In this document: positions 37,580-55,243 of the stretch, one piece after another | Layout: each line of letters starts with the position of its first letter | Numbering within the stretch: the stretch's first letter is position 1 | Origin: Candidatus Peribacteria bacterium | Lineage (GTDB): Bacteria > Patescibacteriota > Gracilibacteria > Peribacterales > Peribacteraceae | NCBI GenBank assembly: GCA_023245865.1 | Contig: JAHFJN010000001.1 | Coordinates: 398,587 to 462,586, forward strand | Direction of reading: 5' to 3' | DNA: 64,000 bases | Position numbers and translations under genes: made by a program | The notes under the pieces: generated by a model | Told to the model about the DNA's origin: nothing | The model's database searches: none | The model's input: only the letters and a program-made list of their open reading frames with translations

Positions 37580-37951
37580 TTATACCTCCTCTCCCCGAGG
37601 GAGAGGATTGAGGTGAGGGGTCCTAAGATATTTCACAATCACTTCGATGACCACATGAATATCTTCCTTCAATTCATGATTTTCAAAATGCAGAATGCGA
37701 TGCCCGCATTTCTTCAAAAATTGTTCTCTTTTTTGATCATAAGCAACTTGCAATGCATGGATTCCGCCATCAAGCTCGATAATGAGGTTCGCTTCTCTAC
37801 AAAAGAAATCAACGATGTAGCAACCGATGGGAACTTGTCGGCGAAATTTGTAATCGCAGAGTTGCCTGTTCTTCAATTTTTTCCAGAGCAACTTCTCCAC
37901 AGGCGTTTGCTGTTTGCGAAGAGTCCGTGCGAATACAATGTTCTCTTTCAT
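37580..37951 (-). CDS. DUF559 (Vsr-like) endonuclease
   Basis: 123 residues. The fold signature is present: TPVEKLLWKKLKNR, then YKFRRQVPIGCYIVDFFC, then LIIELDGGIH, then a C-terminal RILHF strand. These contain the Asp, Glu and Gln/Asp residues of a PD-(D/E)XK-type nuclease related to very-short-patch repair enzymes. The last 15 or so residues are encoded by a palindromic repeat that also flanks the other side of the gene in inverted orientation. This suggests the gene travels with the repeats. Confidence 0.88.
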   Translation of the reverse strand: MKENIVFARTLRKQQTPVEKLLWKKLKNRQLCDYKFRRQVPIGCYIVDFFCREANLIIELDGGIHALQVAYDQKREQFLKKCGHRILHFENHELKEDIHVVIEVIVKYLRTPHLNPLPRGEEV

Positions 37952-38006: not shown

Positions 38007-38054
38007 TGTGTTGCATCTCTTCGTTAATCCTCTTACACTTTCACTCTCTTCACC

Positions 38055-38130
38055 GGGCAATTAGCTCAGCTGGGTCGAGTCCACCTTGGCGGACGAGCAA
38101 TCAGAAAAGCGCCACTGGCGCTCTAGCCAG
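38055..38130 (+). repeat. fold-back tRNA-Val fragment with inserted core (upstream of tRNA-Val)
   Basis: 38055-38073 equals the first 19 bases of tRNA-Val. Next comes an insert forming a hairpin (GTCCACC/GGCGGAC, one mismatch) and the word ACGAGCAATCAGA. Then AAGCGCCAC resumes the tRNA around positions 24-31, and 38116-38130 (TGGCGCTCTAGCCAG) is the perfect reverse complement of tRNA-Val bases 38178-38192. The same design with the same core precedes tRNA-Ile. No anticodon or 3' half is present, so it is not a tRNA gene. Confidence 0.85.
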
Positions 38131-38162
38131 ACGGTTGAGAAGCTGTCATTATTTATACATTC

Positions 38163-38239
38163 GGGCAATTAGCTCAGCTGGCTAGAGCGCCACATTGACA
38201 TTGTGGAGGTCACTGGTTCAAGTCCAGTATTGCCCACCA
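38163..38239 (+). tRNA. tRNA-Val (GAC)
   Basis: 77 bases with CCA. Acceptor GGGCAAT pairs with ATTGCCC; anticodon stem CCACA/TGTGG encloses TTGACAT, giving GAC. Immediately preceded by a fold-back fragment of itself. Confidence 0.97.
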
Positions 38240-42635: not shown

Positions 42636-43082
42636 GTTGCTGGTTGCTCGTTTACTCGTTGCTCGAACGTGCAATCGGATCACGGTGCAGATGCTCCTGA
42701 AGATACGCCATAAGCTTTGCAAGTTGTGCCCCGATTTTTCTTGTTCGTTCTGCAGCATCCTTGAATTCGGGCTCTGTCATATATCCTTCATCGACACCAT
42801 AATACAAATGTGAACGAACCTCGGCACTAGATCGTTTCGCATAGCCCAAAAACATTACAAATTCAGGATTTGTCGTTGCATCATTTCCTTCCGCAATATT
42901 TGCCATGATCGACAATGCTGCGCGTGAAATTTGATCAGCCCATCCCCAATCTTTCCTTTCAACTGCCTTCTTGCAAAACAACCGGACCATGCGAGTAAGA
43001 TCTCGAGCTTCCTGCCATGCAGCAATCTCCTCGAAAGTTTTAAATTGCATAGCGAGAAACGAGAAACCAGTGAACCAGCAAC
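42636..43082. mobile_element. four-helix-bundle gene cassette framed by inverted heptamer arrays
   Basis: Left array (42636-42665) reads GTTGCTG, GTTGCTC, GTTTACTC, GTTGCTC. The right array (43052-43082), read on the minus strand, gives GTTGCTG, GTTCACTG, GTTTCTC, GTTTCTC. The arrays are inverted, and the 447-bp unit fits exactly between the ends of dut (42634) and ftsZ (43084). The gene's start and stop lie at the inner edges of the arrays, with its last codons inside the left one. Confidence 0.75.
42652..43050 (-). CDS. four-helix-bundle protein (23S rRNA intervening-sequence / Avd-like family)
   Basis: 132 residues. The family motif FEEIAAWQEARDLTRMVRLFC at the start, DQISRAALSIMANIAEG, the FLGYAKRSSAEVRSHLY segment and a C-terminal helix are typical. 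Members are found in 23S rRNA intervening sequences and are related to the accessory protein Avd of diversity-generating retroelements; they are small basic oligomers that bind nucleic acid. No ribosome-binding site precedes the ATG; the heptamer array is directly upstream. The stop codon and the last residues (SSNE) come from the other array. Confidence 0.9.
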   Translation of the reverse strand: MQFKTFEEIAAWQEARDLTRMVRLFCKKAVERKDWGWADQISRAALSIMANIAEGNDATTNPEFVMFLGYAKRSSAEVRSHLYYGVDEGYMTEPEFKDAAERTRKIGAQLAKLMAYLQEHLHRDPIARSSNE

Positions 43083-55066: not shown

Positions 55067-55142
55067 TGGTGGGCGATGATGGATTTGAACCATCGACCTC
55101 GACATTATCAGTGTCGCGCTCTAACCCCTGAGCTAATCGCCC
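55067..55142 (-). tRNA. tRNA-Ile (GAU)
   Basis: 76 bases with CCA. Acceptor GGGCGAT pairs with ATCGCCC; anticodon stem CGACA/TGTCG encloses CTGATAA, giving GAU. Preceded, in its direction of transcription, by a fold-back fragment of itself. Confidence 0.97.
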
Positions 55143-55164: not shown

Positions 55165-55243
55165 TCAGGGGTTAGAGCGCAAGTCGCGCTCATCTGATTG
55201 CTCGTACGCCTCAGGCGTACTCAACCCCCTGAGCTAATCGCCC
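55165..55243 (-). repeat. fold-back tRNA-Ile fragment with inserted core (upstream of tRNA-Ile)
   Basis: On the minus strand, 55243-55225 equals the first 18-19 bases of tRNA-Ile (GGGCGATTAGCTCAGGGGG). Then a hairpin GTACGCC-TGA-GGCGTAC and ACGAGCAATCAGA, then GAGCGCGAC resuming the tRNA. It ends with a 16-base perfect antisense of the tRNA D-arm (55180-55165 against 55131-55116). Core, order and insertion point match the tRNA-Val element at 38055-38130. Confidence 0.87.

Follow-up and report, generated by a model that had tools for sequence, protein, structure and literature searches.

A tRNA-matched unit upstream of tRNA genes in Candidatus Peribacteria and other CPR families, and its possible role as a bistable leader RNA

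Why should an intact tRNA gene be preceded by a partial copy of itself and by a strand complementary to it? The question is raised by the tRNA-Val(gac) gene in a stretch of 64,000 nucleotides (hereafter the window; GCA_023245865.1, contig JAHFJN010000001.1, positions 398,587 to 462,586) from a Candidatus Peribacteria genome, which belongs to the CPR and comprises 1.1 Mb in 11 contigs.

Anatomy and spread of the unit

Sequence comparison within the window revealed that bases 1-19 of tRNA-Val(gac) are copied exactly ahead of the gene, at 38055-38073 (Table 1). As a direct repeat, copy and tRNA share 92% identity across 26 nt. The copy is followed by an insert (38074-38108) consisting of a hairpin (38079-38094) with GA/GA flanks, then ACGAGCAATCAGA and an A-rich run. 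After the insert, tRNA sequence is resumed for about 8 nt (AGCGCCAC), and the unit ends with a segment that is the reverse complement of the tRNA-Val D-arm at 15 of 15 positions. This is the layout given in the original prediction, which proved correct base for base. Directly upstream of the unit, a small ORF is located on the minus strand (37580-37951) that we take to resemble DUF559-type endonuclease-like proteins. Another minus-strand ORF (42652-43050) presumably resembles the four-helix-bundle 23S rRNA intervening-sequence protein family.

Table 1. Positions of the two units, their parts and their partner tRNA genes in the window
Feature	Position	Strand	Basis or remark
Weak candidate promoter, upstream of copy	38011..38039	+	TTGCAT, 17 nt, TACACT; read from sequence
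5' copy, exact tRNA-Val bases 1-19	38055..38073	+	Edges at 1 and 19/20 found family-wide
Core G(U)C-GA-hairpin-GA-GC; tandem G.A flanking hairpin P2	38074..38098	+	Alignment, covariation
A-rich linker AATCAGAAAA	38099..38108	+	Conserved in alignment
Short sense copy, tRNA bases around 24-30; 5' arm of mini-hairpin P3	38108..38115	+	Sequence, alignment
Antisense segment, perfect complement of tRNA-Val 38178-38192 (D-arm 3' half)	38116..38130	+	Sequence comparison
Terminator-like hairpin, then ATTATTTAT	38130..38147	+	Type enriched family-wide, about 1/3 of units
Spacer between unit and tRNA	38131..38162	+	-10-like hexamers enriched in Peribacteria spacers
tRNA-Val(gac), intact	38163..38239	+	
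tRNA-Ile(gat), partner of second unit	55067..55142	-	
Second family unit, tRNA-Ile partner	55165..55243	-	Copy 55225-55243, antisense 55165-55180; composite fold z = -8.53 (shuffles)

With the Val unit as query, a second unit was found in the window, upstream of tRNA-Ile on the minus strand, and further copies were found in the same genome and its relatives. Those relatives that share the core and bear a name are Candidatus Peribacteria and Peribacteraceae. A covariance model built from 22 unit sequences detected 100 units in 43 of 74 Peribacteria-family genomes, so that related genomes do contain tRNA-linked units as had been expected; the other 31 had no match to the model, and the distribution is therefore patchy. 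For 90 of the 100 matches the next gene downstream is a tRNA: 82 end at most 60 nt from it and 8 are distal members of tandem pairs. The remaining matches reach contig ends (6) or lack a called tRNA (4). Partner tRNAs represent ten amino acids (Pro, Val, Ala, Ile, His, Arg, Asp, Thr, Gly and Trp), and the median distance from copy start to tRNA start is 104-106 nt (range 82-139). Reading upstream of the tRNAs recovered from the window's genome, we also observed divergent units before Lys(ctt), Trp and Thr(cgt). This unit-bearing tRNA-Trp is the only one found in the genome, so it must be made despite its unit.

Applied to a class sample, the covariance model retrieved zero units outside the Peribacteria family; applied to a phylum sample, it retrieved two in other families, termed here f33 and f40. 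A pattern search, in which only the antisense and the tRNA were specified and both copy and core were left free, brought up the plan again in another, large CPR family (f33) and in a third (f96). These loci possess a 5' copy at the expected place, matching at 15-19 of 19 bases, with few exceptions that include a tRNA-Ile match in genome G012. Cores of the other families are of type A (UGUC-GA-hairpin-GA) or type B (GCUCAG-UU-GG-ARAG-CC-NUCAGC). The 13-base core singled out in the original prediction is hence real as a Peribacteria variant, but the plan itself occurs, with differing cores, in at least two CPR families besides the Peribacteria family. The reversed pattern gave zero matches, and so did the pattern in 301 genomes of a non-CPR phylum. 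Two matches were obtained from 2.9 million viral contigs; both lack the copy and are taken as chance, and a phage-borne element was rejected on this ground.

Correspondence between unit and adjacent tRNA

The antisense scores 28.5 against its own tRNA versus 23.5 (sd 0.39) against permuted ones (0/20000 permutations), with the reservation that the sequences are related and p-values overstate their independence. Complementarity is high across tRNA bases 18-27 and drops on both sides. In standard cases tRNA base 20, which is C or T, is complementary to the antisense in 36/36 units in the Peribacteria family and 22/22 outside it; this count ignores kinship and leaves out a tRNA-His unit of f33 (L261), which carries a G.U pair at base 20. 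Even unusual D-loops are matched, for example GGTCAGAG with CTCTGACC and GGCCAGAG with CTCTGGCC. The antisense thus follows the identity of the adjacent tRNA as foreseen, in 58/58 standard cases at base 20 and in the permutation tests. Excess of wobble pairs in the antisense is not significant (p = 0.09), and substitutions in the acceptor strand of the copy are not biased towards those compatible with G-U. Pairing of the antisense merely with the copy was rejected, since copy and tRNA part ways at base 20, where it is the tRNA that the antisense matches. Recurrence of the unit 100 times in the family, together with the permutation test, rules out a chance repeat.

Similarity of the copy to its tRNA was evaluated in 63 units with diverged flanks (43 in the Peribacteria family and 20 others). 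In these, copy bases 1-19 match the own tRNA at 0.77-1.0 in the family, and copy bases 1-18 at 0.90-1.0 outside it. In the acceptor, copies have an identity of 0.905 to their own tRNA, compared with 0.434 to tRNAs for other amino acids. Averaged over flank positions -3 to -15, similarity is near background; at -1 and -2, the bases before copy and tRNA are alike as well. A copy that stays matched between sharp edges (base 1 and base 18/19) despite diverged flanks argues against recent duplication, and edges at just these tRNA bases point to a constraint at the RNA level. Recent tandem copies do exist, in arrays L043 and L067. The scar of a template-switching element, also among the original proposals, is weakened by such RNA-level edges where flanks have diverged, though the units may have originated by insertion.

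Several units depart from the common plan. Those of tRNA-Arg are mostly without D-arm antisense; it is missing from the tRNA-Arg(tcg) units L003, L044, L048, L175 and L177, several of which share a 3' segment like TTCTTTGAT. Palindromic repeats of the CCGCCTTCGTC...GACTACGGTGGGCAAGC type lie within some tRNA 5' copies, mostly at the D-stem GCTC. This concerns L164 and, in genome G000, L204, L220 and L187, located ahead of Met(cat), Ser(cga) and Thr(tgt), respectively. The Ser(cga) unit keeps the plan without the usual core, having copy, palindrome and D-arm antisense ACTCTGCCAT. In G033:C56 (L167), G091:C22 (L170), G061:C29 (L173) and G000:C3:103647 (L003), the palindrome CCTGCCTGCCGGCAGGCAGG largely replaces the 5' copy; the core is kept in all four, and the antisense in all except the Arg unit. 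At L055 (after tRNA-Pro), L151 (tRNA-Arg-like) and L181 (tRNA-Ile-like), the core lies in a D-loop with no second 5' half downstream. These three loci may be decayed copies or recombination products.

Core structure, predicted folds and proposed role

Alignment of the units revealed compensatory changes at all five pairs of hairpin P2. In the Peribacteria family P2 has tandem GA on its flanks, and the pair next beyond it is C-G in 57 cases, U-A in 6, U.G in 4 and C.A in 0. A k-turn was considered for this core; its GA/GA fits and its bulge does not, and the adjacent C-G/U-A covariation favours a tandem G.A internal loop. A hammerhead-like core was rejected, as the likeness is one of resemblance alone and the required motif is absent.

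Compared with dinucleotide shuffles, the Val region folded together with its tRNA has z = -3.86; the Val unit folded alone is unremarkable (z = -1.26). When unit and tRNA are folded together, the minimum-energy structure joins the acceptor strand of the copy to the 3' acceptor strand of the tRNA, and the antisense to the real D-arm. The clearest folds, for example that of the window's Ile unit, keep the anticodon and T arms and form a composite cloverleaf from which the real 5' half is looped out. By forced energy comparison, the composite has the advantage over a native tRNA with its leader free in 83% of 81 units of the Peribacteria family (mean -5.4 kcal/mol) and in 23/23 units of other families (mean -13.3 kcal/mol), leaving about 17% of Peribacteria units in which it is not favoured. 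With swapped tRNAs this advantage is lost (+4.4 kcal/mol in the family, +2.3 kcal/mol in others). These energies and the covariation with the tRNA thus indicate two mutually exclusive conserved folds, one of the features by which a cis-acting bistable leader RNA is recognized.

A strict sigma-70 scan returned no match upstream of the Val copy and none in the Val spacer. Peribacteria units show enrichment of -10-like hexamers at two places, ahead of the copy and in the spacer; judged from those in the spacer, transcription of the tRNA may often begin after the leader. Outside Peribacteria, such hexamers occur upstream of the copy at 0.70 versus 0.30 in shuffled sequences and are hardly enriched in the spacer (0.45 versus 0.32), so the unit is probably part of the tRNA transcript there.

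Of the explanations proposed at the outset, the one with most support is that the RNA binds the nascent tRNA or regulates it; covariation at base 20, the permutation tests and the loss of composite folds on tRNA swap all speak for it. We propose that the unit is a conserved, cis-acting, tRNA-specific bistable leader which would gate maturation of its own tRNA by a "5'-half swap", and we put the probability of this reading at roughly one half. A transcript starting upstream of the unit would first contain the copy of tRNA bases 1-19 with a D-arm enlarged by the core, and then the strand complementary to bases 18-27 of the coming tRNA. As the tRNA emerges, the antisense would bind its D-arm and its 3' acceptor strand would pair with the copied 5' strand. 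The result would be a composite tRNA with the real anticodon and T arms, the real 5' half being looped out between D-arm and anticodon arm. Such a composite might represent a non-productive or delayed precursor, and the leader could then set the yield of functional tRNA per transcript, be it by the choice of start site, by cleavage of the leader or by a factor that binds the core. Anatomy, spread, specificity for the adjacent tRNA, conservation of pairing and predicted stability are shown by the present analysis; co-transcription, an inhibitory effect and any signal acting on the switch are what we infer from them.

Somewhat more tentatively, we suggest that these units constitute a CPR-specific RNA class, in which each tRNA has a tailor-made decoy of its own 5' half and two competing whole-tRNA folds may render its maturation individually switchable. 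If so, a major group of uncultured bacteria has tRNA genes that are individually provided with control RNAs matched to themselves, and neither Rfam nor the literature searched contains tRNA regulation of this form. It would then be clear how a cell can tune each tRNA when its roughly 46 tRNA genes are mostly single, and there would be a testable case of a precursor choosing between two complete tRNA folds. Annotation is also concerned, as 5' halves of the units can pass for decayed or duplicated tRNA genes.

Alternative explanations and known systems

Unlikely, yet first among the alternatives, is a selfish or mobile insertion: a small hairpin element would enter the tRNA D-loop and spare the tRNA by duplicating its promoter and 5' half, with the fold-back as part of the insertion mechanism. 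Consistent with this are the constant copy end at base 18/19, the tandem units, the patchy distribution, the palindromic repeats in several copies and the cores within decayed tRNA copies that have no second 5' half (L055, L151, L181). In most units, however, the flanks bear no duplication while the copy stays matched, and the antisense tracks each tRNA, unusual D-loops included. Moreover, no ORF or longer autonomous version of the element was recognised, and the sole two viral-contig matches, both without copy, are due to chance.

The composite might instead be the product: a tRNA or tRNA-like RNA of extended length, whose 5' end is processed at the copy and whose loop is perhaps excised later. 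We regard this as rather improbable. All four arms (acceptor, D, anticodon, T) are retained in the predicted composite, copy and tRNA are preceded by similar bases at -1 and -2, and the genome has RNase P RNA. Nevertheless, the complete downstream tRNA leaves no need for such a product, no conserved splice-like boundary was identified, and enlarged D-arms would be unusual in translation. Presence of RNase P RNA in the genome also disposes of the idea that special leaders compensate for missing RNase P.

Little credence is given to the possibility that the unit has no function and arose by tandem duplication, with gene conversion keeping the copy matched and inverted-repeat correction keeping the antisense matched. 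Recent tandem copies (L043, L067) and units with similar flanks would suit this scenario, but conversion would not halt at tRNA base 1 in 63 units with diverged flanks. Neither does it account for a tandem GA motif that is kept, uncorrected, while the adjoining pair covaries, nor for the same plan with different cores in separate CPR families.

We consider it equally doubtful that the unit is a transcription attenuator, in which the antisense would serve as a switch arm, allowing either a terminator ahead of the tRNA or an antiterminator to form. Terminator-like hairpins, such as that of the Val unit (38130-38147), are present in 37/107 units versus 17.3 (sd 3.1) in mononucleotide shuffles, about a twofold excess. 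They are nevertheless confined to a minority of one third of units, which excludes attenuation as a general rule, and the copied acceptor strand is left unexplained.

Returning to the bistable leader, one of its closest counterparts is the T-box riboswitch (RF00230), likewise a leader RNA that acts in cis, base-pairs specifically with tRNA and adopts alternative folds. T-boxes, however, sense tRNA in trans through specifier codon and CCA end and usually control mRNAs, whereas the unit lies ahead of a tRNA gene and pairs with the D-arm of that same tRNA. Neither the window nor the unit nor any of five other-family loci was matched by the T-box covariance model, with its stem I specifier loop and antiterminator T-box. 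Placement upstream of aminoacyl-tRNA synthetase or amino-acid genes, typical of T-boxes, is not the rule here either, a tRNA being next downstream in 90/100 cases. No Rfam family matched the unit when the window, the unit and the five other-family loci were scanned; this includes known ribozyme and group I intron models, and on the unit, up to E = 5, there was only a sub-threshold sRNA on the other strand.

In rtT RNA, the tyrT repeats of E. coli (RF00391), the 3' end of the tRNA is repeated downstream of it. Both systems thus have a repeated partial tRNA sequence adjoining a tRNA gene, but in the unit it is the 5' half (bases 1-19), located upstream and combined with an antisense arm and a conserved core, and Rfam gave no match. 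Remnants of tRNA left by integrating elements also form a direct repeat of part of a tRNA. The unit differs from them in having no element between the copies, a spacing of about 105 nt, a fold-back arm and a structured conserved core. As the distance from copy to tRNA (82-139 nt) is too short for a recombinase gene, it does not fit an integrative-element attachment site.

A description of such a plan was not found in the open literature searched. Pairing of a pre-tRNA 5' leader in a short acceptor-stem extension with 3' RCCA slows RNase P (PMC9433436). The proposed unit would similarly slow processing by leader-tRNA pairing, but it would do so with a copied half and a D-arm antisense. Leader RNAs with alternative folds are generally well known; what we rate as new in kind is a tRNA gene equipped with a decoy of its 5' half.
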